DNA from: Venturia oleaginea
Taxonomy: Eukaryota > Ascomycota > Dothideomycetes > Venturiales > Venturiaceae
DNA length: 64,000 nucleotides
Direction: 5' to 3'
NCBI GenBank assembly: GCA_013176395.1
Contig: JABMLP010000005.1
Location: forward strand, 124,001-188,000
Shown: in pieces, positions 1 through 59,358 of the stretch
How the letters are laid out: the number at the start of each line of letters is the position of its first letter
How positions within the stretch are numbered: position 1 is the stretch's first letter
Notes under the pieces: generated by a model
The model's database searches: none
The model's input: the letters and a program-made list of their open reading frames with translations, nothing else
What the model was told of the DNA's origin: nothing
Made by a program: the position numbers and the translations under genes

Positions 1-79
1 CAAATCCAAACGCAAAGTGTACACTAAGAACTCCCACCATCCATCATATTCCTCACAGTGCTCAAGTCAAAGGCAAAGC

Positions 80-389
80 TGTAAGAGTTCAACCCTCAAA
101 GGTGTTTCGCAAGTGAGGGAAGACAGCTTTTATTTCAAGTATCTAAGTACAGAGAAGAAAGTGTAAATACAGGAAGGATAGCTCGTATAAATAATCCTCC
201 TCTTACAATAGATCCTTCTAGAAAGTATCTTTAAATGGAAACGTGACAGCTTGCGAAATAGAACATGGCAGCTTGCGAAATAGAACATGACAGCTTGCAA
301 AATAGAACATGACAGCTTGCAGAATAACAAGAGAACAATTGGAAATCCAGTCATGGATAAGCTAGAGAGAAGGATTCCATCCCTTAACA
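80..389 (-). repeat. A1 left LTR (3' LTR of the element), 310 bp
   Basis: It begins TGTAAGAG and ends CTTAACA on the + strand, giving TG..CA termini. It contains a 22-bp tandem repeat (units at 245-266, 267-288, 289-310, then a partial unit). On the - strand it has a TATTTATAC TATA-like box, followed about 45 nt later by a pyrimidine-rich stretch and GTACTTAGATA. Confidence 0.95.
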
Positions 390-3300
390 TTATCCCCTCC
401 CCCCCTCTCTTGTAGATCGATGTGAGCGTAGTCTCTGAGGGCGTAGTATAGGTCCGTCGTTTTCAAGAACGTTGCCGTAGGCACTTTCAAAAGCGTCCAG
501 AGCTGTAGTTTGTTGGAGTTCGCTAAGGGGTTCCCACGTAGGATCAACGTAGCCTACCCACTTAACTAAGACTTCTCGTGTTTGTTGTCGACCTCGCCGG
601 CGCCATCTTGCGGCTAGAATAGCCTCGATACCGTATTCCTCGTCTCCTTGTTCAGTTACTATAGGAGGCGGCTGTGTATTATCTTGTATTTGTGAAGGTA
701 GGGGATCTGTGCCAGCTCTCCTAAGTAAAGACGTATGAAATCGGTTGTGGATTCCTCTGGGTGTATCAAGCTCGTAAGACATTGAGTTGATAACTCGTGT
801 AACTGTATACTTCCCATGAATCCAGTCTAGTTTCTTACAAGGACGTAGGGTTTTTACGTTCTTTAGGTTGAGCCAGACTTTGTCTCCCACTTTAAAAGAG
901 TCAGCCGGAGCACGATCTCTATTAGAGTAGTATTCTTGCTGTTGCTGAGCTGATACCATTGACGTTTCTGCCCATTCTTGTGCGTCCTTCAATTTTGCTA
1001 CAAGATCTTGTGCTTTTTCTTTTGGATTCTCAGGGGTTTTCTGGGGAGCTTCAACAGTTCCTATATGCTCAATGTTATAACCGTGGGTTAAGAAGAAAGG
1101 CGATAGGCCCGTAGCTTGGTTTGGTCTATTATCGAGGCATATTTGAGCAATAGGCAGGAGCTCAACCCAGTCGTCCTGACTAAATGTACAGAACTTACGT
1201 AGATAGGCTTCAACTTCTTGATTTCTTCTTTCCGTAGATCCATCAGTCTCAGGGTGATACGCTGTAGAGAGTCTTCTCTCTATCTTAAGAAGGTGACAAA
1301 CTTCTTTCCAGAAAGCATTAACAAATTGCGTGTCCCTATCTGAGACTAGAGATCTAGGAAGCCAGTGTAATCTTACGTAGTTCTGCATAAATAGTTTTGC
1401 AAATCCTTCAGCTCCAAACTGTTCTTTAGGCACTGGGAACAGGATAGTTCCTTTACCCAAGCGGTCAGTAATAACGCAGAGTCTTGTGCATCTTTGGCTC
1501 TCTGGTAATTCGACTATGAAGTCTACTGAAATATCTTGCCAGATACGGCTAGGGACAGGAAGAGGTTTAAGTAAACCTTTCTTTTTGTCTCGCCAGACTG
1601 AAGTTCTTCCGCAGACGTCACAATTGCGTATAAACTGACGTATATCTTGAGCAAATCCCGGCCAGTAGAACTGTCTGGAGAGAATAGCAATAGTAGCTTC
1701 TCGTCCAGGATGCCCTGATAGGACTGAATCGTGTATTTCTTGAATTACTCCTGTTAAGAGAGGCTCGTAGGAGGGCAACCAGATTCGGTCTCTATAGTAG
1801 AGCTGGTTGTTTTCGACTTTACAATCTCCTATAGAAGTAGGAACCTTTAGCTTAGATGGGAACTGCCTATCTTGCTTTAGAACGCTTTGGAAAATACGTC
1901 TGTAGTCTAGATCTCCTTCGAGTGCAGTTTCCCATCTATCCCTTAGATCACCTGAGAGAAAGGGATTTTGTATAAAGGGGATAGGTTCTTTGTCTACTTC
2001 TTGAGCATTTTCTTGGGCAGCTTCTTCTCTTGCAGGAGTCTTATCCTCTAGAACGTTAATCCAAAGCTTTGGAGGTAATAACGTTCTAGTTCTTTCAACG
2101 ATTCTTGGGTCTTGAATATCCTTTGGGAGATCTTGATCCCTTCGAGTTAAGGCGTCTGGAACTACAGATTCAGAGCCTGGGCGATAGCCTAGTTTGAAGT
2201 TAAACTTAGCTAGTATCTGCGCCCATCTCATTTGCCTTTCATTTAGTTCCCTTTTTACCATAAACTTCTCAAGGTTCTTGTGATCTGTGAGGATAATGAA
2301 TGGCTTACTTAGGCTTAGTAGCTCGCTAGTCCAATGGACTAGAGCTTTGACTATAGCCATAAGTTCTTTGTCGTGGATATCATAATTGCATTCGGCTGGC
2401 AAGTGCTTAGTAGAGAAGAAAGCACATGGTTTCCAGTTACCTAGCTCATCTTTTTGACTAAGTACTGCTCCGGAAGCCCAGCCTGAAGCATCAGGTTCTA
2501 CTCGCGTAGGCTTATCTTCATCAAGTGCAGACAGGACAGGTTCTTTGCAAAACTCTGCCTTAAGTTTTTGAAAAGATTCTTCTTGCTCCTTTCCCCATAA
2601 AAATGGAGTATTCTTCTTTGTAAGGCGAACCAGAGGCTCCCTTATTGTTGAGTTATCTTTTACAAAGTCACGGTAGAAGTTTGTAAAGCCTAGGAAGCCA
2701 CGTACTCCTCGTAGAGTAGTAGGACGTTCCCATTCTTTAATTGCTTTGATCTTCTCCGGATCCATGTGTAGGCCCGTTTCAGTATCTATAACGAAGCCTA
2801 GATACTTGACTCGTTTGGTATTAAACTCGCACTTCCGAATATCAAGGTATAACCCAGCGTTAAGGCAGCTTTGAAGTATCTTTTCAGTCTTTTCTTCATG
2901 GTCTTTAAGGTTCTTTGAAGAGTATATTACTATATCGTCTAGATAAGCTGAGCAGAACTCGTCTAGGTATCGTCGAAGGATATAGTTTATATACCGTTGA
3001 AAAGACGCAGGTGCACCGGTTAAGCCAAAGGGAGTAACTAGCCATTCAAATAGACCATATCTAGTTCGAAAGGCAGTTTTGAACTCATCTCCCGTTGCGA
3101 TTCGAATCTTGTGGAAGGCAGCATTTACATCAAGCTTACTAAGATACTTAGCACGAGCTAAGGTTAGTAAAGTCTCTTTTACTAACGGTAGCGGGTACCT
3201 ATCCTTTCGAGTAATTGCGTTTAAGGCTCGGTAGTCTACGCAAAAGCGTAAGCCCCCTCCTGGTTTCTTCACAAAGAGAACTGGAGACGCAGCAACTGAT

Positions 3301-4175
3301 TTACTCTCTCGGATAAAGCCTTTATCTAGTAGCTCTGTAAGAGTCCTTCGCAAAACAAGGAGTTGTTCTCGACCCATACCATATAGAGGTCCCCAAGGAA
3401 GTGGTTTTCCTTCTTCTATAGGTATTTCGTGATCAATCCCAGGGCGATGCGGTGGTAGTCTCTCGGCCCTTTTAGGATCAAAGACAGCAGCGTACTTATG
3501 AAACCTCTTAGGTAGCAATTCCAGTATTTGCTCTGTTGTCAAAGGGACTTTCGGCTTCAAGGCAATATCAATATCTCGAAGAGTAACAGCAAATACTCTA
3601 GACGCGTCTTTGATTTTCTCAAGTGTAGAAGTGACAAGGCGGTGGAATCTTACGGGCGCTACTTGTTGTATATCAAGTTTGTCTTCAAATTTAGCATCGC
3701 GAATGCTAATCCCGTTTGCAAAGGTAAGAGTACCTTTAGATTCATTGATAACGGCTTTGGTGTCCTTGAGAAAAGGCCTGCCTAGTAGAAGATCCTCAAA
3801 TTGTCCCGGGACTATATAAGCAAAAGCGTTGCATATAAGTCCCCCTAAATCTAGGTTCAACTTCGCAATTTTTGTCACTTGGGTCTGTCCTTCTTCCTTA
3901 AGAACTCCACCTATAGTACGCGGACTAATAGGGAGTACTTCAAGGTCCATCTGCGAAGCTTTCTCCTCGTTTATTGATGCGTAGCAGCTAGATCCATTAT
4001 CAAGGAGAGTTTTAAGAGAGTATATATCGTTCACTATAGTATTTGTGTAGAAAAGGCGGGAGAGCATCTTGGGTCTGAACTGCTCCCATTCTTTTTCTAT
4101 CCGAGAACGGTGTGAATCAGTGTCTTTGTTCGAATTCAAAATACTATTTACTCTCTCAATTGACTCCTTTGACAA
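390..4175 (-). CDS. pol: A1 Pol polyprotein: PR-RT-RNaseH-IN-chromodomain
   Basis: The frame has 1,261 codons counted from a TTG at 4175 and stays open upstream to 4250. There is no ATG at the front, so Pol is probably made by -1 frameshifting from Gag. Numbering from the TTG: retropepsin-like motif LLDNGSS (D59) with LLLGRPFL following; RT about 240-430 with D349 and YLDD 411-414; RNase H about 555-680 with D562, E604 and D631; integrase zinc domain H815, H822, C852, C855; catalytic triad D885, D946, E982 with exact D-35-E spacing; chromodomain about 1181-1235 ending in KWVGY..PTWEP. This is the order of Ty3/gypsy chromoviruses. Pol copies element RNA into DNA and integrates it; a chromodomain usually guides integration to marked chromatin. 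The protease has DNG where DSG or DTG is usual. Confidence 0.95.
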   Translation of the reverse strand: MSKESIERVNSILNSNKDTDSHRSRIEKEWEQFRPKMLSRLFYTNTIVNDIYSLKTLLDNGSSCYASINEEKASQMDLEVLPISPRTIGGVLKEEGQTQVTKIAKLNLDLGGLICNAFAYIVPGQFEDLLLGRPFLKDTKAVINESKGTLTFANGISIRDAKFEDKLDIQQVAPVRFHRLVTSTLEKIKDASRVFAVTLRDIDIALKPKVPLTTEQILELLPKRFHKYAAVFDPKRAERLPPHRPGIDHEIPIEEGKPLPWGPLYGMGREQLLVLRRTLTELLDKGFIRESKSVAASPVLFVKKPGGGLRFCVDYRALNAITRKDRYPLPLVKETLLTLARAKYLSKLDVNAAFHKIRIATGDEFKTAFRTRYGLFEWLVTPFGLTGAPASFQRYINYILRRYLDEFCSAYLDDIVIYSSKNLKDHEEKTEKILQSCLNAGLYLDIRKCEFNTKRVKYLGFVIDTETGLHMDPEKIKAIKEWERPTTLRGVRGFLGFTNFYRDFVKDNSTIREPLVRLTKKNTPFLWGKEQEESFQKLKAEFCKEPVLSALDEDKPTRVEPDASGWASGAVLSQKDELGNWKPCAFFSTKHLPAECNYDIHDKELMAIVKALVHWTSELLSLSKPFIILTDHKNLEKFMVKRELNERQMRWAQILAKFNFKLGYRPGSESVVPDALTRRDQDLPKDIQDPRIVERTRTLLPPKLWINVLEDKTPAREEAAQENAQEVDKEPIPFIQNPFLSGDLRDRWETALEGDLDYRRIFQSVLKQDRQFPSKLKVPTSIGDCKVENNQLYYRDRIWLPSYEPLLTGVIQEIHDSVLSGHPGREATIAILSRQFYWPGFAQDIRQFIRNCDVCGRTSVWRDKKKGLLKPLPVPSRIWQDISVDFIVELPESQRCTRLCVITDRLGKGTILFPVPKEQFGAEGFAKLFMQNYVRLHWLPRSLVSDRDTQFVNAFWKEVCHLLKIERRLSTAYHPETDGSTERRNQEVEAYLRKFCTFSQDDWVELLPIAQICLDNRPNQATGLSPFFLTHGYNIEHIGTVEAPQKTPENPKEKAQDLVAKLKDAQEWAETSMVSAQQQQEYYSNRDRAPADSFKVGDKVWLNLKNVKTLRPCKKLDWIHGKYTVTRVINSMSYELDTPRGIHNRFHTSLLRRAGTDPLPSQIQDNTQPPPIVTEQGDEEYGIEAILAARWRRRGRQQTREVLVKWVGYVDPTWEPLSELQQTTALDAFESAYGNVLENDGPILRPQRLRSHRSTREGGRG
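393..411 (-). other. Polypurine tract of A1 (plus-strand primer)
   Basis: On the - strand this is a 19-base uninterrupted purine run with a G-rich core, three bases from the LTR. It also encodes the last residues of Pol (EGGRG), and the Pol TAA stop (390-392) directly abuts the LTR. The same arrangement occurs at 8738, 19337, 27731, 36083 and 46679. Confidence 0.85.
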
Positions 4176-4222
4176 TTTTGCTCTATCTACTCTACGCCTC
4201 CATCCACGACTTTGGATAGAGG

Positions 4223-4250
4223 CTACTCTTTTTCCGAGTAGTCCTCTTCT
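4223..4250 (-). promoter_or_regulatory. Gag/Pol -1 frameshift window
   Basis: Pol is in the -1 frame relative to Gag. The last upstream stop in the Pol frame is at 4251-4253 and the Gag stop is at 4223-4225, so slippage must happen in this 28-nt overlap. It contains GGAAAAAGAG (Gag frame GAA AAA GAG TAG), where the AAA-decoding tRNA can re-pair with AAA one base back. It is not a textbook X XXY YYZ heptamer. Ribosomal frameshifting is inferred, not shown. Confidence 0.6.
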
Positions 4251-5245
4251 TCAACTTCTTCATTCTCCTCAGTGGTTCCTTTGGCCCTTTTTGAACCAAG
4301 TTGCGTGACTCTTTCTACCTCTGTATCCAACCAGCAGTCTTTCATTCTATGGCCGGCCTTCCCACAGCGTAAGCAGAGGTTATTTGCCTTCCTATATTCA
4401 TAGGCTTTAGACGAAATTTTTAACTTGTTTACGCGTGTAGGCTCCCAGTCCATAGCGTTCAGATCTTTAAAAGACTTCTCTTTATCTCTGAATCGTAACT
4501 TATCTTCTGAGGAAGAGAGCATCTTTGCTGTAGTGATTTGCATACTTGTATTCAAAAGATCGGACACAAACTGCTGGTAGGAGGTACTCTGAGATTGGCC
4601 TATTCTCTGGTTTCGCAGCTCTTGATTTATTGCTTTGTGTAGAAATGCAATTTTAACAGCGTCAGGCCAAGTCATTCCTCCAGCATTAGCAAGAGTGGTT
4701 TCAAAACGGGGAAGAAAAGAGAAGAAGGGTTCTTTCTCTTTTTGTTTGATTGTGGACAGGCTTACAGTAGCTCTTTGTTGTTGTACTGGATCGCCATAGA
4801 AGTTGTCCATATACTGTAACAATTTCTGTCCCGTTTTATCTTCCTCTGGAGCTGTCTTTACGTAGGCCAGAGTAGCCTGAGCTGCGGAGCCTCGTAGAGA
4901 GGAGAAGATGTAGGCAAATTGGTTCCTACTATCCCCTATAGATTCTGCGTCTATCTCCAACTTCATCCTTGCTTGTTGAAACCACTGAGCCCATTCAGAA
5001 CGCTTGCCATCAAATTCTTGGAGCTTAGGAAGTACAGCTTTCTTCCTATGTATTCTGTCTTTTTGTGAATTCTTAGTCTCTTGTCCTTCTACTACGTTCT
5101 CAGAGCGAGTAGTGTTAGGCAAGATTGTAAGAATACGCGTAATAGCATCGTTCTGAATGGCTAGTTGATGTTGTAATGCTGCCATAGCTTCTTGTAGGGC
5201 TTGGGGTTCTTGAGGAACTCTTTGTTCCTGATCTTCTCCTTCCAT
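4223..5245 (-). CDS. gag: A1 Gag polyprotein with CCHC zinc knuckle
   Basis: 340 residues from an ATG 14 bases after a short run of stops in the leader. A glutamine-rich, probably coiled N-terminus (about 1-45) precedes a retrotransposon Gag region (about 75-240, with QWFQQARMKL and YMDNFYGDP stretches). A nucleocapsid knuckle follows at 291-304, of the form C-x2-C-x4-H-x4-C, and then an acidic tail. Gag assembles the particle and binds element RNA. The stop at 4223-4225 lies 27 nt inside the Pol frame, so a -1 slip in this short overlap would fuse the two. B1-B3 carry a stop at W267 that removes the knuckle; this copy does not. Confidence 0.93.
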   Translation of the reverse strand: MEGEDQEQRVPQEPQALQEAMAALQHQLAIQNDAITRILTILPNTTRSENVVEGQETKNSQKDRIHRKKAVLPKLQEFDGKRSEWAQWFQQARMKLEIDAESIGDSRNQFAYIFSSLRGSAAQATLAYVKTAPEEDKTGQKLLQYMDNFYGDPVQQQRATVSLSTIKQKEKEPFFSFLPRFETTLANAGGMTWPDAVKIAFLHKAINQELRNQRIGQSQSTSYQQFVSDLLNTSMQITTAKMLSSSEDKLRFRDKEKSFKDLNAMDWEPTRVNKLKISSKAYEYRKANNLCLRCGKAGHRMKDCWLDTEVERVTQLGSKRAKGTTEENEEVEEEDYSEKE

Positions 5246-5908
5246 ATTTTCACCTATGAGAGATAATAGAGAGCACTACTATACACACTCCTAGGCTCTA
5301 CTCTAGAGATTTGCTAGGCAGTATAGAGTCAATGCCTATTAGTATAGGAAGGTGACTATAGAATCCCAGAAGGATTTTTACACTATAGTCCGCTCTGCAA
5401 TCCTTATTACTAAGGACAGAGCTCCCAGGGACTGTGAAGGCCAAGTGTATTAAATCTCTCTTCCTAGCTCTTTCTTTCCTCAGCTTATTACAGCTTCAAC
5501 TCCTAAGACTACGCTGTCTTAGGATGACCTGCCCTTGCTTCTTGGAGATTCCAGCACGTTCTAGAAAATCTCAGTTTGAATTCTCTTGAATTCCCTTTTT
5601 GGATTGGCCCTTTCGGTTGGCCCTTGCTTCTTGGAGATTCTAGCACCTTCTAGAAAATCTCAGCTTAAATTCTCTTGAATTCCCTTTTTGTTTGGCCCTT
5701 GAGGTTGGCCCTTGAAGTTGGCCTTTGAGGTTGGCCCTTGCTTCTTGAGTTAGGACAAGTGTCCTCTTCTTGAAATTCCTTTCTGTTTGGCACTTGAGGT
5801 TGGCCCTCGCTTCTTGGATTAGGACAAGTGTCCTCTTCTTGAAATTCCTTTTTGGAGCTTGCTCTCTGTGAGCCTTTCTTCCTTTGTAAGACTGAGGTAC
5901 TTAGATAA
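5246..5908 (-). other. A1 untranslated leader with repeats and hairpins
   Basis: 663 bp between the 5' LTR and gag. It contains two copies of a segment with CTTGCTTCTTGGAGATTC (5532-5602, 5624-5689) and two copies of a segment centred on AGGACAAGTGTCCT (about 5749-5793, 5811-5853). There is a 9-bp hairpin TCCTAAGAC/GTCTTAGGA (5501-5524) and a CTCTG/CAGAG stem enclosing CCTT/AAGG near 5393-5421. Leaders of retroelements hold packaging signals; that role is inferred. Small frames in this region are low-complexity translations of the repeats, not genes. Confidence 0.6.
5897..5907 (-). other. Primer-binding region of A1, self-priming type
   Basis: One base inside the 5' LTR boundary, the - strand reads TATCTAAGTAC. 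There is no TGG complementary to a tRNA 3' end. This 11-mer is the exact complement of GTACTTAGATA within the same LTR (5969-5979, - strand), located where transcription is expected to start. Tf1 and sushi-type elements prime from an 11-nt 5' end of their own mRNA folded onto the PBS, so the same mechanism is likely here. Confidence 0.7.
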
Positions 5909-6218
5909 TGTAAGAGTTCAACCCTCAAAGGTGTTTCGCAAGTGAGGGAAGACAGCTTTTATTTCAAGTATCTAAGTACAGAGAAGAAAGTGTAAATACA
6001 GGAAGGATAGCTCGTATAAATAATCCTCCTCTTACAATAGATCCTTCTAGAAAGTATCTTTAAATGGAAACGTGACAGCTTGCGAAATAGAACATGGCAG
6101 CTTGCGAAATAGAACATGACAGCTTGCAAAATAGAACATGACAGCTTGCAGAATAACAAGAGAACAATTGGAAATCCAGTCATGGATAAGCTAGAGAGAA
6201 GGATTCCATCCCTTAACA
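5909..6218 (-). repeat. A1 right LTR (5' LTR of the element), 310 bp
   Basis: Matches the left LTR across its length by eye, with the same 22-bp repeat count (three full units plus a partial). It is followed by aaagc (6219-6223), the right half of the target duplication. It supplies the new stop codon and last nine codons of the adjoining peroxidase gene. Confidence 0.95.
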
Positions 6219-7632
6219 AAAGCACACCCCAGATTAGTCAACGTCGGTCCCAACTTCGTCAACACAAAACTCAACGCATCGACAGTCGGCGTGATAACCC
6301 CGTTCAATCCAGACGGAATACTCTGCGCAGCAAGTTGATAAAGAAGACAACTAGCCGTAGCAGTGTTAGGCGCAGCGACCAATTTTCCATCTTGGATGAA
6401 AGCGCCGAAATTGAGCAGGTCGAAACCGCCGTTGCCCGTGGCGCCACCGAAGAGGACGGGGTGCTCGAGGTACATTGCCAAGATTTCGGCGGTGACGTCG
6501 TTGTTTGTGTACTAAACGTAAATTGTCAGAACGGTGGGCATTTGGAAAGGGGCTGGGAGATACGTACAGGAGCGACACGGTTGGTCCATCTGTCGGGATC
6601 TTCTCTTGACCGTTGAAGGTGTAAGAGCCATCTGATTGTTGCTCGGCACCGAAGAAAGATGAAATGGTCGCTTCGTCTGGAGTGTAATTTGGTCCGGATG
6701 GCATGAGCTCGTAGAGGAAGGAAGCAGCCCCATAAAGTAGTAGGGAAAGTGGTCCGAAGTAAAAGTTCGGGTTCTCAGCAAGAGATTGGTTGTATCGTTG
6801 AGCGCGGTACAGAGAGAGGCCATCGCGGTCATAGTTGCCACCAGTTGTGGCATGCATCATTCTATATAACGTGCCGTTGAAGTTATAATTGTCACCATTG
6901 TGGGTGAAATAGTCATTTCGAGTAAGAGATGAGTCGGCCTCGAATTTGTTGTGACCATCCAAGCCGGGTTCAGACCCAGTCAATGCGGGGTTAACAGATG
7001 TGCGAGTTGTAGCATCGCATCCAATGGAAAGTTTCTCCGTAACAAGATCTCCATCAGTGAGCGTGAGACCAAGGAGCGCTAGAAGATTGGCAAGATCGTA
7101 ACCAACGTTGTAAACGTTTTGCTGAGCGTCGACAAGCTCATTATATGTCACGACACCATCGCGAGAAAGAAATCCGTGATTGGCGGCGGCATTGAGTCCT
7201 GGGCAAGGTCCTCGAATGTCCTATTAGGGTCAGTCATGTTTGCCATATTCGATAGAGGACAAGACAAACGTTTGGGCCAGGCGCAATGAACTGGTGGTCG
7301 GTATCACCATCGGCTGGGACTTTGTAGCCGCCTGTTGGTGATCAGTAAAAGATCAATTATCAGAGCCGTAAGACAGACGTACCTTTTCCTGTTCCTTGAC
7401 TTCCATTCTTTGCACCGCCATATGGGTACCTATCGGAAATGCCAACAGCAGGAACGTGGTTGGCGTTGAAGGGGCAGGTGGCAGCACTGCCTGGGCCATT
7501 CGTGGTTTGTTGGCGTTTCGCTCTTCTAGCACCGCCGAAGAGACTGCTGTCCACGCCCTGCATCTCAGACACGAGTGGGAAAGAGAGGGCTCCCTCGGCT
7601 AGGATACTTGCGAAGAGGAGTGGGTACTTCAT
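6191..7632 (-). pseudogene. Heme-thiolate peroxidase, U1 copy: frameshifted, C-terminus replaced by LTR
   Basis: Exons on the - strand: 7383-7632, 7270-7331, 6568-7220, and 6512 downward into the LTR (stop 6191-6193). Compared with U2 two defects are visible. First, one G is missing from the GGGG run near 6596, which shifts exon 3 after EKIP and destroys the reading through the third splice site. Second, element A1 inserted after the codon for Ala in GCA, so the last four residues (LPLT) are replaced by FVKGWNPSL from the LTR. The native terminator is moved more than 6 kb away. The frameshift is a homopolymer change and might be a sequencing error; the insertion is certain. See the U2 copy for the enzyme itself. 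Confidence 0.85.
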
Positions 7633-8426
7633 GATGATTGCGAAACGAGGTTGTGATTGGGGCAAGATGATCAAGGAGGAAAAATGAAGAATGATCATGG
7701 TCATAAAGGAAGATGGGACAAGCACTCTTTATACATGAATGGTAATCGAAGAACTCGTCCAATAATACTCCCCTTCGTCAACTGAAGATCATAACGCTAA
7801 ACCTTGGACTATGCCTAGCAGGGTAAAAACCCAGGATTTCGATCAACCTGATTGATAAAAAGTCCCTGTCGCTTTTTAACGCTTGTAATCTTCATTTGAC
7901 GGAGGGGAGTACCGAGAGGCCAAAACAAGAGTGTAGAAGACCCACTTCCCCATACTGCGGCAGCGCCATCCACCCACCCACCAAGGTCGCTCCTGTTAAT
8001 GTACCAGGAAACCAGAGAGGCGATCATCTTCGAGCAAAAATTGAGATATCGACGGTGTCAGTATCCGATTGCTGTGATGAAGAAACAAGCAAGCCGTCAA
8101 TTCTAGCTGCGGGGGTCGTACCATTGATCAATGATGACCTCCAAATATCTTGAAAAAGAATTGAACGATTGTAGAACAGAGGACCCTACAATCATTACAA
8201 TATGTATGAACGATTCGAATAACAGAAAAATCCGGAAATAAGACAGAGGTGAGGGCCATGTGCCTTGTCGCTAAGACAGAGATGAGTTGGCCCATCTTTG
8301 AAGGAGCAACTAAAGTCGAAGATCATAGAGCACGATTTAAAACCCCAATCATCTCATTCGTCGACTGCGTTGAAGACCCTGCGGTAGCCTTGGAGTGAAA
8401 GTTCTGTATGGGGAAAAATCAGCGGG
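7633..8426 (-). promoter_or_regulatory. Peroxidase promoter region, U1
   Basis: 794 bp between the peroxidase ATG and element B1. A TATAAAG box on the - strand (7727-7733) lies about 95 bp before the ATG at 7632. This supports that ATG and argues against an in-frame ATG at 7725, which overlaps the box. The same region recurs at 18232-19025, 34978-35771 and 45574-46367 (TATA at 18326, 35072, 45668). I see no gene in it; the short frames are not conserved-looking. The LTR element sits upstream and reads in the same direction. Confidence 0.6.
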
Positions 8427-8737
8427 TGTAAGAGTTCAACCCTCAAAGGTGTTTCGCAAGTGAGAGAAGACTGCTTGTATTTCAAAGTATCTAAGTACAG
8501 AGAAGAAAGTGTAAATACAGGAAGGATAGCTCGTATAAATAATCCTCCTCTTACAATAGATCCTTCTAGAAAGTATCTTTAAATGGAAACGTGACAGCTT
8601 GCGAAATAGAACATGGCAGCTTGCGAAATAGAACATGACAGCTTGCAAAATAGAACATGACAGCTTGCAGAATAACAAGAGAACAATTGGAAATCCAGTC
8701 ATGGATAAGCTAGAGAGAAGGATTCCATCCCTTAACA
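8427..8737 (-). repeat. B1 left LTR, 311 bp, B type
   Basis: Differs from the A1 LTR by GAGAGAAGACTGCTTGTATTTCAAAG in place of GAGGGAAGACAGCTTTTATTTCAAG (+ strand). It has three full 22-bp units plus a partial. It is the same type as both LTRs of B4 and the solo LTR at 50437. Confidence 0.93.
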
Positions 8738-12523: not shown

Positions 12524-12570
12524 TTTTGCTCTATCTACTCTACGCCTCCATCCACGACTTTGGATAGAGG

Positions 12571-23122: not shown

Positions 23123-23169
23123 TTTTGCTCTATCTACTCTACGCCTCCATCCACGACTTTGGATAGAGG

Positions 23170-27415: not shown

Positions 27416-27420
27416 AAAGC

Positions 27421-31517: not shown

Positions 31518-31564
31518 TTTTGCTCTATCTACTCTACGCCTCCATCCACGACTTTGGATAGAGG

Positions 31565-39868: not shown

Positions 39869-39915
39869 TTTTGCTCTATCTACTCTACGCCTCCATCCAC
39901 GACTTTGGATAGAGG

Positions 39916-41931: not shown

Positions 41932-42705
41932 CCCTCCTACTCATAGCTCTCCTGACACTTACTGTCACCGCGGCCCCCGGCACCTCGACTCACTACTGGG
42001 ACTGCTGCATGGTAGATTCGTAGCTCCAGTGACAACTGCTCAACTAACACGCCCCAGCCCTCCTGCGCCTGGCCAAACATAGCCCCAGTTACAAACCCCG
42101 TCCGCGTCTGCGGCGTGAACGACAAATGGCTGTCCGAAAACAGCACACAGAACTCCTGCGTCTACGCCCCAAACCAGCGTCCCAACATACCCACCGAAGA
42201 AGCTGTCTGGGGTGATGCCTTTACATGTCGTAATACCTCTCCATGGGCCGTCAGCGACCAACTCGCTTACGGATTCGCTGCCGTCAAGGTAGGATGGAAG
42301 AATCAGTGGGACACTTGGTGATTTTATCTCTGCTCAATTTATGAAGAAAGTACACGTGCTAACTTCCCACAAAGCTGCTCATGCTACCACCTAAAATTCA
42401 CCTCCACCGCCCTCGCCGGCAAAACCATGATCGTTCAAGCAACAAACACCGGCACCGACCTCATCGACAACCAATTCGACATCATGATTCCCGGCGGCGG
42501 CGTCGGACTCTTCGGCAACCACGCTTGTGAACAGCAGTGGGGTAAAATCGACATGGGAGACCAGTATGGTGGGTTCAAGAGGAGGGAGATGTGTGATCAA
42601 CTGCCACCCTCTTGGAGAGATGGCTGTTATTTGCGATTCGACTGGTATGAGAATGTGGGGAATCCGACTGTAGATTGGTATGAGGTGGCTTGTCCAAAGA
42701 GTTGA
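41895..42705 (+). pseudogene. GH45 endoglucanase, copy 3, frameshift at C-terminus
   Basis: Exons 41895-42011, 42058-42317, 42375-42705. One A is missing from the AAAA run near 42698, so the protein ends ..VACPKS in place of CPKELTDLTGCKRT, losing about ten residues and one cysteine. Both catalytic aspartates and the CCSCY motif are still present, so if the change is real the enzyme could be partly functional. As a homopolymer indel it may be a base-calling error. LTR-derived start as in the other copies. Confidence 0.8.
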
Positions 42706-44145
42706 CGGATTTAACTGGATGTAAGAGGACTTGATCGATGATTTTAAGTGAATTGTTGGTGGTTGTGGTCAGCGAGGACGAAGACGGCAAGAGCTGGAGA
42801 CCGCTAATAGGACGTTGAGACATTTTCCTGGCCATGGAAATCATCTAGATTGAAAGAGCTGAGTCAGGCTTTATGAGATGATATTGAAATGTTCAATCTG
42901 GCCTTTTGTAATACGCAATCTACTCACATCATGAAGACGAAGCTGCCAGTGATAGAAATTCCGCCATCCATCGCTATTTCCCCGGGTGGCGAGAAAAAGT
43001 AAATCTAGTTGTCCCGATGGACCGTTTTTTTGCTGGTTCTTCCCCATATCCGTAATAACTAATCCGTTCATCCCGCCGACTGAATACAATCCCATCCCAA
43101 CGCCCTCTCAGTCCCGAACAATCCTTAATATCTAAAAGAAGAAGCAGGAAAGGCACACCTCCCAACTTCTCGCGAGGATATGGGAAATTATAAAAGGCAG
43201 GTTAATCTACAAAATATTGGAAGAAGAATACGAAGCTAAATGGATAGAAGTTATATGATCGGGCTGAGTGGTGTACATTATACGGTTTGGATATTTTAAG
43301 AGGTATATAGTTAGAATTCATATTTTCAAGGATCGTTGGTAAAATAATATTAATTCTCATGATAAGTTTTGGTAACGTTAGGAGTAGGGAACAGTTCGTT
43401 TTGCGCGGTAATTTAATATACAATCGGAATATGTCAGCGACCTGAATATTACAGACGCATAGTTGATCAACACTTGTGCTCATGGTCGTTGCTACTGCAT
43501 TAGAACTCTGATCATCCGATGGAGAGCGTGAACGAGTTTTCGGTGTTGAAAAAACTCGGTAGAGATTTCGTAGTGGATGATGGAGAGCTGTGTGGAAGCA
43601 TACACAACTGTGCCTTTAGTAGGAGGAAGGGAATGCAATCCAGTGAAGAGACACGTATTGTCCAACGAGGGTGGAAGTGTGTCAAAGTCCAAAGTTGTTG
43701 ATGTAGTTGCTAAGACACGCCTAGAATAGGGAGATCTAGGCAAGGTTCGTGGGTCGAGCCGCTGGCTTGCTACCTTGCCCTGAGCAGCTTCGACGACGCT
43801 TCGACGACTCTTCACCAACTCTTCAAGAACCAATTTTTCATCCTTCCTTCACGATTCCATCGTCCACTGCGAAGTCTGTTAGTCCAGTTGACCAGCTCTT
43901 CCATTAATTTCACTCGCCAGTTCGGCTCAGCATCCATCGCAAAGACCATCGAAAGTCACGAATCCACGAAGATACACACACATGAGGCAGTTGAATGTTG
44001 AGGGTTGCATGATGCATTGAAGAACAAGAATTGGCAGTACACTTAAATGCTTTGAATCTGGTCCAAAAGTACATCTAGTCTATCCAAATCCAAACGCAAA
44101 GTGTACACTAAGAACTCCCACCATCCATCATATTCCTCACAGTGC
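42706..44145. other. Convergent spacer, U3 to U4
   Basis: Third copy of the GH45/peroxidase intergenic region, continuing to the intact stop of the U4 peroxidase gene. No gene seen. Confidence 0.6.
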
Positions 44146-45573
44146 TCAAGTCAAAGGCAAAGCACACCCCAGATTAGTCAACGTCGGTCCCAACTTCGTC
44201 AACACAAAACTCAACGCATCGACAGTCGGCGTGATAACCCCGTTCAATCCAGACGGAATACTCTGCGCAGCAAGTTGATAAAGAAGACAACTAGCCGTAG
44301 CAGTGTTAGGCGCAGCGACCAATTTTCCATCTTGGATGAAAGCGCCGAAATTGAGCAGGTCGAAACCGCCGTTGCCCGTGGCGCCACCGAAGAGGACGGG
44401 GTGCTCGAGGTACATTGCCAAGATTTCGGCGGTGACGTCGTTGTTTGTGTACTAAACGTAAATTGTCAGAACGGTGGGCATTTGGAAAGGGGCTGGGAGA
44501 TACGTACAGGAGCGACACGGTTGGTCCATCTGTCGGGGATCTTCTCTTGACCGTTGAAGGTGTAAGAGCCATCTGATTGTTGCTCGGCACCGAAGAAAGA
44601 TGAAATGGTCGCTTCGTCTGGAGTGTAATTTGGTCCGGATGGCATGAGCTCGTAGAGGAAGGAAGCAGCCCCATAAAGTAGTAGGGAAAGTGGTCCGAAG
44701 TAAAAGTTCGGGTTCTCAGCAAGAGATTGGTTGTATCGTTGAGCGCGGTACAGAGAGAGGCCATCGCGGTCATAGTTGCCACCAGTTGTGGCATGCATCA
44801 TTCTATATAACGTGCCGTTGAAGTTATAATTGTCACCATTGTGGGTGAAATAGTCATTTCGAGTAAGAGATGAGTCGGCCTCGAATTTGTTGTGACCATC
44901 CAAGCCGGGTTCAGACCCAGTCAATGCGGGGTTAACAGATGTGCGAGTTGTAGCATCGCATCCAATGGAAAGTTTCTCCGTAACAAGATCTCCATCAGTG
45001 AGCGTGAGACCAAGGAGCGCTAGAAGATTGGCAAGATCGTAACCAACGTTGTAAACGTTTTGCTGAGCGTCGACAAGCTCATTATATGTCACGACACCAT
45101 CGCGAGAAAGAAATCCGTGATTGGCGGCGGCATTGAGTCCTGGGCAAGGTCCTCGAATGTCCTATTAGGGTCAGTCATGTTTGCCATATTCGATAGAGGA
45201 CAAGACAAACGTTTGGGCCAGGCGCAATGAACTGGTGGTCGGTATCACCATCGGCTGGGACTTTGTAGCCGCCTGTTGGTGATCAGTAAAAGATCAATTA
45301 TCAGAGCCGTAAGACAGACGTACCTTTTCCTGTTCCTTGACTTCCATTCTTTGCACCGCCATATGGGTACCTATCGGAAATGCCAACAGCAGGAACGTGG
45401 TTGGCGTTGAAGGGGCAGGTGGCAGCACTGCCTGGGCCATTCGTGGTTTGTTGGCGTTTCGCTCTTCTAGCACCGCCGAAGAGACTGCTGTCCACGCCCT
45501 GCATCTCAGACACGAGTGGGAAAGAGAGGGCTCCCTCGGCTAGGATACTTGCGAAGAGGAGTGGGTACTTCAT
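44146..45573 (-). CDS. Heme-thiolate peroxidase, U4 copy, intact
   Basis: Exons 45324-45573, 45211-45272, 44508-45161, 44146-44451; 423 residues, with no difference from the U2 protein that I can find. Native LPLT end and stop (44146-44148). This copy sits at the edge of the array. Its promoter (45574-46367) is followed by B4, which still has its target duplication, so it is probably closest to the ancestral gene. Role as for U2: secreted peroxide-dependent heme-thiolate enzyme. Confidence 0.9.
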
Positions 45574-46367
45574 GATGATTGCGAAACGAGGTTGTGATTG
45601 GGGCAAGATGATCAAGGAGGAAAAATGAAGAATGATCATGGTCATAAAGGAAGATGGGACAAGCACTCTTTATACATGAATGGTAATCGAAGAACTCGTC
45701 CAATAATACTCCCCTTCGTCAACTGAAGATCATAACGCTAAACCTTGGACTATGCCTAGCAGGGTAAAAACCCAGGATTTCGATCAACCTGATTGATAAA
45801 AAGTCCCTGTCGCTTTTTAACGCTTGTAATCTTCATTTGACGGAGGGGAGTACCGAGAGGCCAAAACAAGAGTGTAGAAGACCCACTTCCCCATACTGCG
45901 GCAGCGCCATCCACCCACCCACCAAGGTCGCTCCTGTTAATGTACCAGGAAACCAGAGAGGCGATCATCTTCGAGCAAAAATTGAGATATCGACGGTGTC
46001 AGTATCCGATTGCTGTGATGAAGAAACAAGCAAGCCGTCAATTCTAGCTGCGGGGGTCGTACCATTGATCAATGATGACCTCCAAATATCTTGAAAAAGA
46101 ATTGAACGATTGTAGAACAGAGGACCCTACAATCATTACAATATGTATGAACGATTCGAATAACAGAAAAATCCGGAAATAAGACAGAGGTGAGGGCCAT
46201 GTGCCTTGTCGCTAAGACAGAGATGAGTTGGCCCATCTTTGAAGGAGCAACTAAAGTCGAAGATCATAGAGCACGATTTAAAACCCCAATCATCTCATTC
46301 GTCGACTGCGTTGAAGACCCTGCGGTAGCCTTGGAGTGAAAGTTCTGTATGGGGAAAAATCAGCGGG

Positions 46368-46678
46368 TGTAAGAGTTCAACCCTCAAAGGTGTTTCGCAA
46401 GTGAGAGAAGACTGCTTGTATTTCAAAGTATCTAAGTACAGAGAAGAAAGTGTAAATACAGGAAGGATAGCTCGTATAAATAATCCTCCTCTTACAATAG
46501 ATCCTTCTAGAAAGTATCTTTAAATGGAAACGTGACAGCTTGCGAAATAGAACATGGCAGCTTGCGAAATAGAACATGACAGCTTGCAAAATAGAACATG
46601 ACAGCTTGCAGAATAACAAGAGAACAATTGGAAATCCAGTCATGGATAAGCTAGAGAGAAGGATTCCATCCCTTAACA
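46368..46678 (-). repeat. B4 left LTR, 311 bp, B type
   Basis: TG..CA ends, three full 22-bp units plus a partial; preceded by gcggg. Confidence 0.93.
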
Positions 46679-49600
46679 TTATCCCCTCCCCCCCTCTCTT
46701 GTAGATCGATGTGAGCGTAGTCTCTGAGGGCGTAGTATAGGTCCGTCGTTTTCAAGAACGTTGCCGTAGGCACTTTCAAAAGCGTCCAGAGCTGTAGTTT
46801 GTTGGAGTTCGCTAAGGGGTTCCCACGTAGGATCAACGTAGCCTACCCACTTAACTAAGACTTCTCGTGTTTGTTGTCGACCTCGCCGGCGCCATCTTGC
46901 GGCTAGAATAGCCTCGATACCGTATTCCTCGTCTCCTTGTTCAGTTACTATAGGAGGCGGCTGTGTATTATCTTGTATTTGTGAAGGTAGGGGATCTGTG
47001 CCAGCTCTCCTAAGTAAAGACGTATGAAATCGGTTGTGGATTCCTCTGGGTGTATCAAGCTCGTAAGACATTGAGTTGATAACTCGTGTAACTGTATACT
47101 TCCCATGAATCCAGTCTAGTTTCTTACAAGGACGTAGGGTTTTTACGTTCTTTAGGTTGAGCCAGACTTTGTCTCCCACTTTAAAAGAGTCAGCCGGAGC
47201 ACGATCTCTATTAGAGTAGTATTCTTGCTGTTGCTGAGCTGATACCATTGACGTTTCTGCCCATTCTTGTGCGTCCTTCAATTTTGCTACAAGATCTTGT
47301 GCTTTTTCTTTTGGATTCTCAGGGGTTTTCTGGGGAGCTTCAACAGTTCCTATATGCTCAATGTTATAACCGTGGGTTAAGAAGAAAGGCGATAGGCCCG
47401 TAGCTTGGTTTGGTCTATTATCGAGGCATATTTGAGCAATAGGCAGGAGCTCAACCCAGTCGTCCTGACTAAATGTACAGAACTTACGTAGATAGGCTTC
47501 AACTTCTTGATTTCTTCTTTCCGTAGATCCATCAGTCTCAGGGTGATACGCTGTAGAGAGTCTTCTCTCTATCTTAAGAAGGTGACAAACTTCTTTCCAG
47601 AAAGCATTAACAAATTGCGTGTCCCTATCTGAGACTAGAGATCTAGGAAGCCAGTGTAATCTTACGTAGTTCTGCATAAATAGTTTTGCAAATCCTTCAG
47701 CTCCAAACTGTTCTTTAGGCACTGGGAACAGGATAGTTCCTTTACCCAAGCGGTCAGTAATAACGCAGAGTCTTGTGCATCTTTGGCTCTCTGGTAATTC
47801 GACTATGAAGTCTACTGAAATATCTTGCCAGATACGGCTAGGGACAGGAAGAGGTTTAAGTAAACCTTTCTTTTTGTCTCGCCAGACTGAAGTTCTTCCG
47901 CAGACGTCACAATTGCGTATAAACTGACGTATATCTTGAGCAAATCCCGGCCAGTAGAACTGTCTGGAGAGAATAGCAATAGTAGCTTCTCGTCCAGGAT
48001 GCCCTGATAGGACTGAATCGTGTATTTCTTGAATTACTCCTGTTAAGAGAGGCTCGTAGGAGGGCAACCAGATTCGGTCTCTATAGTAGAGCTGGTTGTT
48101 TTCGACTTTACAATCTCCTATAGAAGTAGGAACCTTTAGCTTAGATGGGAACTGCCTATCTTGCTTTAGAACGCTTTGGAAAATACGTCTGTAGTCTAGA
48201 TCTCCTTCGAGTGCAGTTTCCCATCTATCCCTTAGATCACCTGAGAGAAAGGGATTTTGTATAAAGGGGATAGGTTCTTTGTCTACTTCTTGAGCATTTT
48301 CTTGGGCAGCTTCTTCTCTTGCAGGAGTCTTATCCTCTAGAACGTTAATCCAAAGCTTTGGAGGTAATAACGTTCTAGTTCTTTCAACGATTCTTGGGTC
48401 TTGAATATCCTTTGGGAGATCTTGATCCCTTCGAGTTAAGGCGTCTGGAACTACAGATTCAGAGCCTGGGCGATAGCCTAGTTTGAAGTTAAACTTAGCT
48501 AGTATCTGCGCCCATCTCATTTGCCTTTCATTTAGTTCCCTTTTTACCATAAACTTCTCAAGGTTCTTGTGATCTGTGAGGATAATGAATGGCTTACTTA
48601 GGCTTAGTAGCTCGCTAGTCCAATGGACTAGAGCTTTGACTATAGCCATAAGTTCTTTGTCGTGGATATCATAATTGCATTCGGCTGGCAAGTGCTTAGT
48701 AGAGAAGAAAGCACATGGTTTCCAGTTACCTAGCTCATCTTTTTGACTAAGTACTGCTCCGGAAGCCCAGCCTGAAGCATCAGGTTCTACTCGCGTAGGC
48801 TTATCTTCATCAAGTGCAGACAGGACAGGTTCTTTGCAAAACTCTGCCTTAAGTTTTTGAAAAGATTCTTCTTGCTCCTTTCCCCATAAAAATGGAGTAT
48901 TCTTCTTTGTAAGGCGAACCAGAGGCTCCCTTATTGTTGAGTTATCTTTTACAAAGTCACGGTAGAAGTTTGTAAAGCCTAGGAAGCCACGTACTCCTCG
49001 TAGAGTAGTAGGACGTTCCCATTCTTTAATTGCTTTGATCTTCTCCGGATCCATGTGTAGGCCCGTTTCAGTATCTATAACGAAGCCTAGATACTTGACT
49101 CGTTTGGTATTAAACTCGCACTTCCGAATATCAAGGTATAACCCAGCGTTAAGGCAGCTTTGAAGTATCTTTTCAGTCTTTTCTTCATGGTCTTTAAGGT
49201 TCTTTGAAGAGTATATTACTATATCGTCTAGATAAGCTGAGCAGAACTCGTCTAGGTATCGTCGAAGGATATAGTTTATATACCGTTGAAAAGACGCAGG
49301 TGCACCGGTTAAGCCAAAGGGAGTAACTAGCCATTCAAATAGACCATATCTAGTTCGAAAGGCAGTTTTGAACTCATCTCCCGTTGCGATTCGAATCTTG
49401 TGGAAGGCAGCATTTACATCAAGCTTACTAAGATACTTAGCACGAGCTAAGGTTAGTAAAGTCTCTTTTACTAACGGTAGCGGGTACCTATCCTTTCGAG
49501 TAATTGCGTTTAAGGCTCGGTAGTCTACGCAAAAGCGTAAGCCCCCTCCTGGTTTCTTCACAAAGAGAACTGGAGACGCAGCAACTGATTTACTCTCTCG

Positions 49601-50780
49601 GATAAAGCCTTTATCTAGTAGCTCTGTAAGAGTCCTTCGCAAAACAAGGAGTTGTTCTCGACCCATACCATATAGAGGTCCCCAAGGAAGTGGTTTTCCT
49701 TCTTCTATAGGTATTTCGTGATCAATCCCAGGGCGATGCGGTGGTAGTCTCTCGGCCCTTTTAGGATCAAAGACAGCAGCGTACTTATGAAACCTCTTAG
49801 GTAGCAATTCCAGTATTTGCTCTGTTGTCAAAGGGACTTTCGGCTTCAAGGCAATATCAATATCTCGAAGAGTAACAGCAAATACTCTAGACGCGTCTTT
49901 GATTTTCTCAAGTGTAGAAGTGACAAGGCGGTGGAATCTTACGGGCGCTACTTGTTGTATATCAAGTTTGTCTTCAAATTTAGCATCGCGAATGCTAATC
50001 CCGTTTGCAAAGGTAAGAGTACCTTTAGATTCATTGATAACGGCTTTGGTGTCCTTGAGAAAAGGCCTGCCTAGTAGAAGATCCTCAAATTGTCCCGGGA
50101 CTATATAAGCAAAAGCGTTGCATATAAGTCCCCCTAAATCTAGGTTCAACTTCGCAATTTTTGTCACTTGGGTCTGTCCTTCTTCCTTAAGAACTCCACC
50201 TATAGTACGCGGACTAATAGGGAGTACTTCAAGGTCCATCTGCGAAGCTTTCTCCTCGTTTATTGATGCGTAGCAGCTAGATCCATTATCAAGGAGAGTT
50301 TTAAGAGAGTATATATCGTTCACTATAGTATTTGTGTAGAAAAGGCGGGAGAGCATCTTGGGTCTGAACTGCTCCCATTCTTTTTCTATCCGAGAACGGT
50401 GTGAATCAGTGTCTTTGTTCGAATTCAAAATACTATTGTTAAGGGATGGAATCCTTCTCTCTAGCTTATCCATGACTGGATTTCCAATTGTTCTCTTGTT
50501 ATTCTGCAAGCTGTCATGTTCTATTTTGCAAGCTGTCATGTTCTATTTCGCAAGCTGCCATGTTCTATTTCGCAAGCTGTCACGTTTCCATTTAAAGATA
50601 CTTTCTAGAAGGATCTATTGTAAGAGGAGGATTATTTATACGAGCTATCCTTCCTGTATTTACACTTTCTTCTCTGTACTTAGATACTTTGAAATACAAG
50701 CAGTCTTCTCTCACTTGCGAAACACCTTTGAGGGTTGAACTCTTACAACTATTTACTCTCTCAATTGACTCCTTTGACAA
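46679..50780 (-). pseudogene. pol: B4 pol, interrupted by solo LTR near the N-terminus
   Basis: Codons 1-11 (50753-50780 and the target duplication) are separated from codon 12 onward (46679-50436) by the inserted LTR. The remaining 1,250 codons with protease, RT, RNase H, integrase and chromodomain are open. By chance the antisense strand of the LTR continues the pol frame, so a 1,286-codon frame begins inside the LTR. The link to gag through the -1 window is lost, so normal Gag-Pol cannot be made from this copy. Confidence 0.9.
50437..50747 (+). repeat. Solo LTR (B type) inserted in B4 pol, opposite orientation
   Basis: 311 bp reading TGTTAAGGG..CTCTTACA on the + strand, flanked by the 5-bp target duplication actat (50432-50436 and 50748-50752). 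B1-B3 have the uninterrupted site with actat once. There is no internal sequence, so LTR-LTR recombination deleted the body of a later insertion. It is the reverse complement of the B4 LTRs. Confidence 0.93.
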
Positions 50781-50827
50781 TTTTGCTCTATCTACTCTAC
50801 GCCTCCATCCACGACTTTGGATAGAGG

Positions 50828-51850
50828 CTACTCTTTTTCCGAGTAGTCCTCTTCTTCAACTTCTTCATTCTCCTCAGTGGTTCCTTTGGCCCTTTTTGAA
50901 CCAAGTTGCGTGACTCTTTCTACCTCTGTATCCAACCAGCAGTCTTTCATTCTATGGCCGGCCTTCCCACAGCGTAAGCAGAGGTTATTTGCCTTCCTAT
51001 ATTCATAGGCTTTAGACGAAATTTTTAACTTGTTTACGCGTGTAGGCTCCCAGTCCATAGCGTTCAGATCTTTAAAAGACTTCTCTTTATCTCTGAATCG
51101 TAACTTATCTTCTGAGGAAGAGAGCATCTTTGCTGTAGTGATTTGCATACTTGTATTCAAAAGATCGGACACAAACTGCTGGTAGGAGGTACTCTGAGAT
51201 TGGCCTATTCTCTGGTTTCGCAGCTCTTGATTTATTGCTTTGTGTAGAAATGCAATTTTAACAGCGTCAGGCCAAGTCATTCCTCCAGCATTAGCAAGAG
51301 TGGTTTCAAAACGGGGAAGAAAAGAGAAGAAGGGTTCTTTCTCTTTTTGTTTGATTGTGGACAGGCTTACAGTAGCTCTTTGTTGTTGTACTGGATCGCC
51401 ATAGAAGTTGTCCATATACTGTAACAATTTCTGTCCCGTTTTATCTTCCTCTGGAGCTGTCTTTACGTAGGCCAGAGTAGCCTGAGCTGCGGAGCCTCGT
51501 AGAGAGGAGAAGATGTAGGCAAATTGGTTCCTACTATCCCCTATAGACTCTGCGTCTATCTCCAACTTCATCCTTGCTTGTTGAAACCACTGAGCCCATT
51601 CAGAACGCTTGCCATCAAATTCTTGGAGCTTAGGAAGTACAGCTTTCTTCCTATGTATTCTGTCTTTTTGTGAATTCTTAGTCTCTTGTCCTTCTACTAC
51701 GTTCTCAGAGCGAGTAGTGTTAGGCAAGATTGTAAGAATACGCGTAATAGCATCGTTCTGAATGGCTAGTTGATGTTGTAATGCTGCCATAGCTTCTTGT
51801 AGGGCTTGGGGTTCTTGAGGAACTCTTTGTTCCTGATCTTCTCCTTCCAT
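50828..51850 (-). CDS. gag: B4 Gag polyprotein, intact
   Basis: 340 residues with TGG at codon 267 and the CCHC knuckle. It shares the GACTCTGCG variant and the TTTTTACC leader variant with B1-B3 rather than with A1, so B and C are sister copies distinct from A. Gag alone could be expressed. Confidence 0.92.
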   Translation of the reverse strand: MEGEDQEQRVPQEPQALQEAMAALQHQLAIQNDAITRILTILPNTTRSENVVEGQETKNSQKDRIHRKKAVLPKLQEFDGKRSEWAQWFQQARMKLEIDAESIGDSRNQFAYIFSSLRGSAAQATLAYVKTAPEEDKTGQKLLQYMDNFYGDPVQQQRATVSLSTIKQKEKEPFFSFLPRFETTLANAGGMTWPDAVKIAFLHKAINQELRNQRIGQSQSTSYQQFVSDLLNTSMQITTAKMLSSSEDKLRFRDKEKSFKDLNAMDWEPTRVNKLKISSKAYEYRKANNLCLRCGKAGHRMKDCWLDTEVERVTQLGSKRAKGTTEENEEVEEEDYSEKE

Positions 51851-52513
51851 ATTTTTACCTATGAGAGATAATAGAGAGCACTACTATACACACTCCTAGG
51901 CTCTACTCTAGAGATTTGCTAGGCAGTATAGAGTCAATGCCTATTAGTATAGGAAGGTGACTATAGAATCCCAGAAGGATTTTTACACTATAGTCCGCTC
52001 TGCAATCCTTATTACTAAGGACAGAGCTCCCAGGGACTGTGAAGGCCAAGTGTATTAAATCTCTCTTCCTAGCTCTTTCTTTCCTCAGCTTATTACAGCT
52101 TCAACTCCTAAGACTACGCTGTCTTAGGATGACCTGCCCTTGCTTCTTGGAGATTCCAGCACGTTCTAGAAAATCTCAGTTTGAATTCTCTTGAATTCCC
52201 TTTTTGGATTGGCCCTTTCGGTTGGCCCTTGCTTCTTGGAGATTCTAGCACCTTCTAGAAAATCTCAGCTTGAATTCTCTTGAATTCCCTTTTTGTTTGG
52301 CCCTTGAGGTTGGCCCTTGAAGTTGGCCTTTGAGGTTGGCCCTTGCTTCTTGAGTTAGGACAAGTGTCCTCTTCTTGAAATTCCTTTCTGTTTGGCCCTT
52401 GAGGTTGGCCCTCGCTTCTTGGATTAGGACAAGTGTCCTCTTCTTGAAATTCCTTTTTGGAGCTTGCTCTCTGTGAGCCTTTCTTCCTTTGTAAGATTGA
52501 GGTACTTAGATAA

Positions 52514-52824
52514 TGTAAGAGTTCAACCCTCAAAGGTGTTTCGCAAGTGAGAGAAGACTGCTTGTATTTCAAAGTATCTAAGTACAGAGAAGAAAGTGTA
52601 AATACAGGAAGGATAGCTCGTATAAATAATCCTCCTCTTACAATAGATCCTTCTAGAAAGTATCTTTAAATGGAAACGTGACAGCTTGCGAAATAGAACA
52701 TGGCAGCTTGCGAAATAGAACATGACAGCTTGCAAAATAGAACATGACAGCTTGCAGAATAACAAGAGAACAATTGGAAATCCAGTCATGGATAAGCTAG
52801 AGAGAAGGATTCCATCCCTTAACA
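52514..52824 (-). repeat. B4 right LTR (5' LTR), 311 bp, B type
   Basis: Matches the B4 left LTR and is followed by gcggg (52825-52829). The self-priming complement TATCTAAGTAC is present. It marks the end of the array. Confidence 0.93.
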
Positions 52825-52829
52825 GCGGG

Positions 52830-59350: not shown

Positions 59351-59358
59351 CACATCTC

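Follow-up and report, generated by a model that had tools for sequence, protein, structure and literature searches.

How did one convergent gene pair come to stand in four near-identical copies between retrotransposons, and does its multiplication mean adaptation? The question was raised by a window of 64,000 nucleotides from Venturia oleaginea (contig JABMLP010000005.1, here C45; C45:124001-188000), whose assembly comprised 46.08 Mb in 61 contigs. A window coordinate was the C45 coordinate minus 124000 and is used below unless a contig is named. The repeated unit was a 4,437-bp segment with a GH45 gene on the + strand and a heme-thiolate peroxidase (HTP) gene on the - strand. The array occupied C45:115661-176824 (window -8339 to 52824) and extended past the left edge of the window. 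Its order was border element X, segment 1 with element A1 inside, element B1, segment 2, B2, segment 3 with A2 inside, B3, segment 4, and border element E. The A elements, the B elements, and both border elements belonged to one family, whose copies of about 6.1-6.2 kb alternated with the 4.4-kb segments. Recombination between two insertions (P and E), insertion of A, and duplication of the A-bearing dimer was very probably the best account of the array.

Self-comparison gave a direct repeat of 23.1 kb at an offset of 27,341 with 99.94% identity, and repeats of 10.6 kb with 99.94-99.97% identity. Together with mapping, it placed the copies head-to-tail in direct orientation. At these lengths and identities, chance can be set aside. 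The four segments differed pairwise by 0 substitutions and 1-2 indel bases. Measured from their left ends (8427, 19026, 35772, and 46368), the B-type elements and E were spaced at 10,599, 16,746, and 10,596. The original prediction had described four near-identical units, and the direct repeats bore this out. Of its spacings (10,599, 16,743, and about 10.6 kb), the first and third held and the middle one was off by 3. It had also placed A at the same base in units 1 and 3 and not in 2 and 4. This was correct: AAAGC was found on both sides of A, and segments 2 and 4 were uninterrupted. The span of 1-52824 was right at its right end and too short at its left, where one more element begins at C45:115661.

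The element family showed RVT_1, RNase H, and Integrase_H2C2 over cut-off, in that order and coded on the - strand. Chromo (24.3 bits, cut-off 25.1) and rve (23.5 bits, cut-off 32.6) were both below cut-off in the array element. Long terminal repeats (LTRs) and 5-bp target-site duplications (TSDs) were present in the family, and the array element was classified as a putative Ty3/gypsy chromovirus with a borderline chromodomain. The two LTRs were identical in A1 (80-389 and 5909-6218, 310/310) and in E (46368-46678 and 52514-52824, 311/311).

The B elements at the junctions gave direct evidence. Target sites were tabulated for 11 elements. They matched in four (A1, A2, E, and C31_1) and were mismatched in the other seven. 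All three B elements were flanked by the target site of E (GCGGG) at their left end and by that of another insertion, P (CCCTC), at their right end. The two LTRs within each B element were unlike (311 vs 332 bp, 8 substitutions, 23 gap bases); in B1 the left LTR (8427-8737, 311 bp) was of E type and the right LTR (14257-14588, 332 bp) of P type. Diagnostic sites were then scored in the element alignment, with element C26b_1 as the reference for P type. The count excluded private changes, positions with different letters in E and C26b_2 (for example 5173), and alignment columns where B1 has a gap; the last exclusion drops a left-LTR insertion. In each of B1, B2, and B3, the left sites (positions 39-177) were 8/8 of E type, and the right sites (11 sites at 4368-6006 and a 22-bp indel) were 12/12 of P type. 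Each B element had one switch, from E to P, between the left and right sites. The right LTR of C26b_1 was 100% identical to that of B1. B1-B3 were E/P hybrids, as expected from non-allelic homologous recombination between LTR elements. The inverted element C26b_inv was left out of the target-site table; by eye, it had GGAAT on both sides.

Other stages were present in the same genome. A block of about 40 kb (C26:87839-128142) recurred in parts in three further places. Much of it was on C31 (C31:49336-117042), its left part and the segment were at a second C26 locus (246467-292575), and C45 had the segment and a 12.7-kb right flank (C45:176823-189564) that was 99.9% identical to C26:100584-87839. 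Identities were 99.85-99.98% in the longer pieces compared and 99.4% for the second C26 segment; the genome search lists for block copies are lower bounds. Neither the P site nor the E site was occupied in the segments at C26:100578-105015 and C31:78088-82525. At C26:275824-292575, a single segment stood between P-type and E-type elements of the same orientation, and its outer sides were rearranged. One genome thus shows the stages of empty site, flanked single segment, and array.

The insertion of A marked the order of the later steps. A1 and A2 are a single insertion that was copied; two independent insertions were ruled out by the same base and the same TSD, AAAGC. A2 differed from A1 by 2 substitutions and 4 indels. 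As a separate observation, the right LTR of A2 (33252-33563) differed from its left LTR by 1 substitution and 2 gap bases and had E-type letters, as after LTR-to-LTR gene conversion. B1 and B3 differed by 0 substitutions and 2 indels, and B1 and B2 by 2 substitutions; B2 stood apart from both B1 and B3 at element positions 1731 and 2772. Searches with two patterns from inside the element, whose counts are lower bounds, gave the B2 allele 2772C in 11 of the 99 other matches listed (100 of 123 being listed) and, by hand count, 1731A in 62 of the 100 matches listed of 135. Since both alleles occur in other family copies, the B2 substitutions were unlikely to be sequencing errors. If the A-bearing dimer was duplicated, a single hybrid should have given rise to both B1 and B3, and B2 should be of separate origin. 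The observed differences, at two sites only, support two separate recombination events.

We considered whether the assembler had looped through near-identical 6-kb elements and over-printed the segment. The array segments have no substitutions between them, and their 1-2 indel bases sit in short homopolymers, which is typical of long-read errors. However, a loop here would reuse the right LTR of X, and the right LTR of the B elements matches C26b_1 at 100% and X at 98.5%. B2 also holds two substitutions that are family alleles, and A is present in only 2 of the 4 segments. Three further contigs carry regular arrays as well, though a systematic artefact would give the same. An assembly artefact was therefore regarded as distinctly unlikely.

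The hybrid structure, the target-site pairs, the empty and single-segment loci, and the pattern of A were observed in the assembly. The sequence of events that they suggest is as follows. A dispersed segmental duplication would have carried the convergent GH45/HTP pair. One of its copies would have received two Ty3/gypsy elements in the same orientation, 4.4 kb apart: P at GH45 codon 14, and E at a distance of 794 bp upstream of HTP. The non-allelic P and E would then have undergone homologous recombination, by unequal sister or homologue crossing over or equivalent repair; the segment would have become a tandem pair with an E/P hybrid element between its two copies. Next, a third element, A, would have entered one segment close to the 3' end of HTP. 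A further E-P recombination would have duplicated the A-bearing dimer, which would put A in segments 1 and 3 only. We infer both the order of these events and the pathway of recombination. The history given in the original prediction (tandem duplication, insertion of A, duplication of the dimer) was upheld and sharpened, the junctions being P/E hybrids, with B1 equal to B3 by substitutions and B2 differing at two positions. The features of the array are collected in Table 1.

Table 1. Features of the array and its surroundings, from left to right (window coordinates unless C45 is named)
Feature	Position	Strand	Remark
Element X	C45:115661-121846		leftmost border; mapping
Segment 1, left (GH45) half	C45:121847-124078		outside the left edge of the window; mapping
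Element A1	80..6218	-	6,139 bp; in segment 1 near HTP 3' end; TSD AAAGC
Segment 1, right half, HTP copy 1	6219..8426	-	mapping
HTP copy 1	about 6219-7632	-	position carried over from copy 2
Hybrid element B1	8427..14588	-	flanks GCGGG / CCCTC
GH45 copy 2	14552..15392	+	ATG 14552 inside LTR, in frame into signal-peptide codons at 14589
GH45 copy 2, exons	14589-14668, 14715-14974, 15032-15392	+	splice sites by eye
Segment 2	14589..19025	.	complete, without A; 4,437 bp
HTP copy 2	16804..18231	-	open; PF01328, PCP motif
HTP copy 2, four exons	18231-17982, 17930-17869, 17819-17166, 17109-16804	-	splice sites by eye
Hybrid element B2	19026..25187	-	junction of the two dimers; same E/P junctions
Segment 3, left half, GH45 copy 3	25188..27420	+	
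GH45 copy 3	in 25188..27420	+	5' end cut off by element, like copy 2
Element A2	27421..33563	-	same insertion as A1; TSD AAAGC
Segment 3, right half, HTP copy 3	33564..35771	-	
HTP copy 3	about 33564-34977	-	position carried over from copy 2
Hybrid element B3	35772..41931	-	
Segment 4, GH45 copy 4 and HTP copy 4	41932..46367	.	without A
GH45 copy 4	41932-42734		position carried over from copy 2
HTP copy 4	44146-45573		position carried over from copy 2
Border element E	46368..52824	-	TSD GCGGG both sides; original right-hand insertion
Solo LTR inside E	50437..50747	+	opposite orientation; TSD ACTAT
Native right flank	52825..64000	.	outside array; identity to C26, pieces on C31

Several results weighed against this account. 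The outer borders were unequal, the right one being E with a matching TSD and the left one X without. X was not the P donor. Its right LTR was 98.5% identical to the B right LTR, its flanks were mismatched (ATAGG/CCCTC), its LTRs were another version, and the sequence to its left differed from that of the 40-kb block. Because of this, a later exchange at the left border must be assumed. The left neighbour of X (C45:114444-115646) was a repeat, about 1.2 kb long and dispersed over many places at 94-97%, and the left border could not be traced to a single locus because of it. P was known only via C26b_1, whose left half derives from a nested element (left flank GTTGG), so the left half of P itself was unseen. 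At C26:275340-275840, P had been hit by a nested insertion of the same family; an LTR, about 100 bp of internal sequence, and a second element were found, and the rest resembled a recombinant of both. The right side of the C26b locus was foreign sequence (GGAGT). Its segment (C26:282007-286436) had 21 indel bases and 3 substitutions relative to segment 2, as if unpolished, and the locus may be poorly assembled or weakly supported. The two-event order would depend on two substitutions only. In addition, gene conversion or mutation must also have taken place, because E and C26b_2 disagree at 5173 and the two LTRs of A2 differ.

Two further candidates were rejected. A 987-residue stretch of RPB2 showed 97% identity to Venturia inaequalis, and the RPB2-domain search of the genome gave 2 matches, a strong one on C2 and a weaker one on C14 that was taken for a paralogue. 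Uncollapsed haplotypes were rejected on this one gene, and the assembly was not obviously doubled, by the thin check that a single gene allows. Repeat-induced point mutation (RIP) was rejected on the 0 substitutions between array segments; RIP indices covered pieces of the window, with no genome background.

The block around the pair carried GH45, HTP, and a major facilitator superfamily (MFS) transporter, and C26 begins with telomere repeats. Parts of the block lie in four places at high identity, as a giant mobile element of the Starship kind would, with the array as part of its cargo history. However, the genome had 11 DUF3435 matches, and all of them lay away from the copies of the block. 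The block also ends at ordinary transposon sequence, including a Mutator-like element (MULE) and a repeated 0.45-kb stretch. With no DUF3435 captain at the block, a Starship identity was rejected, and such an origin was considered extremely improbable.

We then asked what the recombination account meant for the two genes. GH45 matched PF02015 over cut-off (146.5 bits), and its translation contained YWDCC and FDIMIPGGGVG, which we take to have a catalytic role and to hold both catalytic Asp residues. It was 81% identical to a Venturia effusa protein. The genome-wide search gave 10 exon-level GH45 matches, 7 in copies of the segment and 3 in another gene on C22. The gene was assigned to the GH45 cellulases, and its product was predicted, by eye, to be secreted. 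In all four array copies, the native promoter, the ATG, and the first 13 codons were cut off by P; the native start was intact in the empty C26 copy. Copy 4 also had a 1-base deletion in an A run near its 3' end. The original prediction of multiplied dosage of a secreted cellulase was therefore not sustained. The whole series of events was likely to have left four GH45 genes without their own promoter and start, and four HTP genes.

It was possible in principle that the LTR had supplied a new start to GH45, with antisense LTR transcription, an LTR ATG in frame into the signal peptide, and amplification of the re-driven cellulase. The LTR end in X, B1, B2, B3, and C26b_1 reads MDKLERRIPSLN in frame into TLLLIALLTL, which keeps the hydrophobic core and the whole catalytic domain. 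However, the frame would fit one time in three by chance, and an antisense promoter would be needed, the elements being coded on the opposite strand; copy 4 has its 1-base deletion near the 3' end as well. We judged a working LTR start to be quite improbable. The broader idea, in which a recently active gypsy family builds 10.0-10.6-kb arrays and at GH45 its LTR became the gene start, so that one element both captured and amplified the gene, was very improbable.

HTP fared differently. It matched PF01328 (Peroxidase_2) over cut-off and had a PCP motif, presumably the heme-ligand motif, and was assigned as a putative heme-thiolate peroxidase. In segment 2, 794 bp upstream of the HTP ATG were kept as far as the left end of the E-type element. 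In copies 1 and 3, the last residues were replaced by A (LTR-encoded in copy 1, with the same junction in segment 3). One base was deleted from a G run in the coding sequence of copy 1, and one from an intron of copy 3. These deletions, like that in GH45 copy 4, may be sequencing errors. The genome-wide peroxidase search gave 20 exon-level matches, 7 of them in copies of the segment. A multiplied HTP is possible. As a side observation, the best named HTP matches were from Leotiomycetes (70-75%) and Tothia, and no Venturia protein was named among the 120 of 612 matches listed. HTP may have been lost or be rare in sequenced Venturia, as far as these matches indicate. Taken by themselves, the HTP matches had suggested that the DNA came from Helotiales; this origin was rejected on the GH45 identity to V. 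effusa and the RPB2 identity to V. inaequalis, which point to Venturia or a close relative.

The same element formed regular arrays elsewhere. In the pattern searches described above, same-strand copies were found at C11:1114613-1147118 (spacings 10,472, 10,485, and 10,481), at C34:149156-180257 (10,011, 10,012, and 10,011), and at C15:1041633-1062435 (10,389 twice), and pairs at C18:662044-673582 and C27:286223-297758 had spacings of 10,471 and 10,468. Genome-wide profile searches placed no GH45 or Peroxidase_2 match inside these C11, C15, C34, C18, and C27 arrays; C11 and C34 had one other peroxidase match each, distant from the arrays. Over 339 bases, a 350-base piece beside the element on C11 had 99% identity to C45:221244-221582; a short way downstream of that C45 stretch are frames that match aspartyl protease, RNase H, and reverse transcriptase. 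A 350-base piece from C34 had no match in the sequences compared. With these two pieces as the cargo sampled, array formation looks like a habit of the element that is not peculiar to this gene pair. Regular arrays of this element that hold neither GH45 nor HTP point to an element-driven process.

These arrays also bore on selection. If more secreted peroxidase, and perhaps cellulase, had been selected for, the array might have been kept for that reason. In segment 2, HTP is open and still has 794 bp of native sequence upstream, and the four segments show no substitutions. However, a recent origin would equally be expected to give high identity, GH45 was severed from its promoter and ATG in 4/4 copies, and the element builds arrays with neither gene. 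Adaptive amplification was thus considered unlikely. The array looks more like element-driven copying than proven adaptation, and adaptation is unnecessary to explain it. The original prediction had named the locus a candidate for copy-number adaptation, and the sequence gave no evidence for this.

A single assembly thus displays the successive steps of retrotransposon-mediated amplification, and the nested insertion gives a date for the second round. The mechanism is often inferred from association; here it was readable from hybrid junctions and target sites. The locus also urges caution against equating multiplied secreted-enzyme genes with adaptation, because the amplifying element deprived one gene of the pair of its start. 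Among the papers listed by our literature searches, none gave an account of this GH45-HTP locus. The array is a clean natural case of a known mechanism, amplification bounded by LTR elements. In Saccharomyces cerevisiae, Ty-bounded head-to-tail amplification with hybrid junctions was described as re-replication-induced gene amplification (RRIGA) (PMC3536649). The likeness lies in head-to-tail copies at the original locus, borders of LTR elements, and inter-unit hybrids fitting non-allelic homologous recombination. In contrast to RRIGA, the C45 array is natural, in a filamentous fungus, and has a small unit (4.4 kb and the element); a nested insertion marks its second round, and empty and single-segment loci are in the same genome. 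Re-replication belongs to the yeast system as presented there, and the C45 array gives no sign of it. For effector candidates of Erysiphe necator, transposon-linked tandem duplication was reported and recombination between transposons proposed (PMC10470754). That case, in the sections drawn on, shares the transposon-rich surroundings, the tandem copies, and a plant-associated fungus; however, recombination was suggested there from association, whereas hybrid junctions and target sites support it directly in the C45 array. In the copy-number variation of EnCYP51 in the same species, one duplication boundary was at a gypsy fragment; that study showed dose and field association, and detected no homologous repeats to account for the duplication (PMC4298948). 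Raised gene copy number and gypsy at a boundary are common to both, but the C45 array, known here from its sequence, has the repeats.

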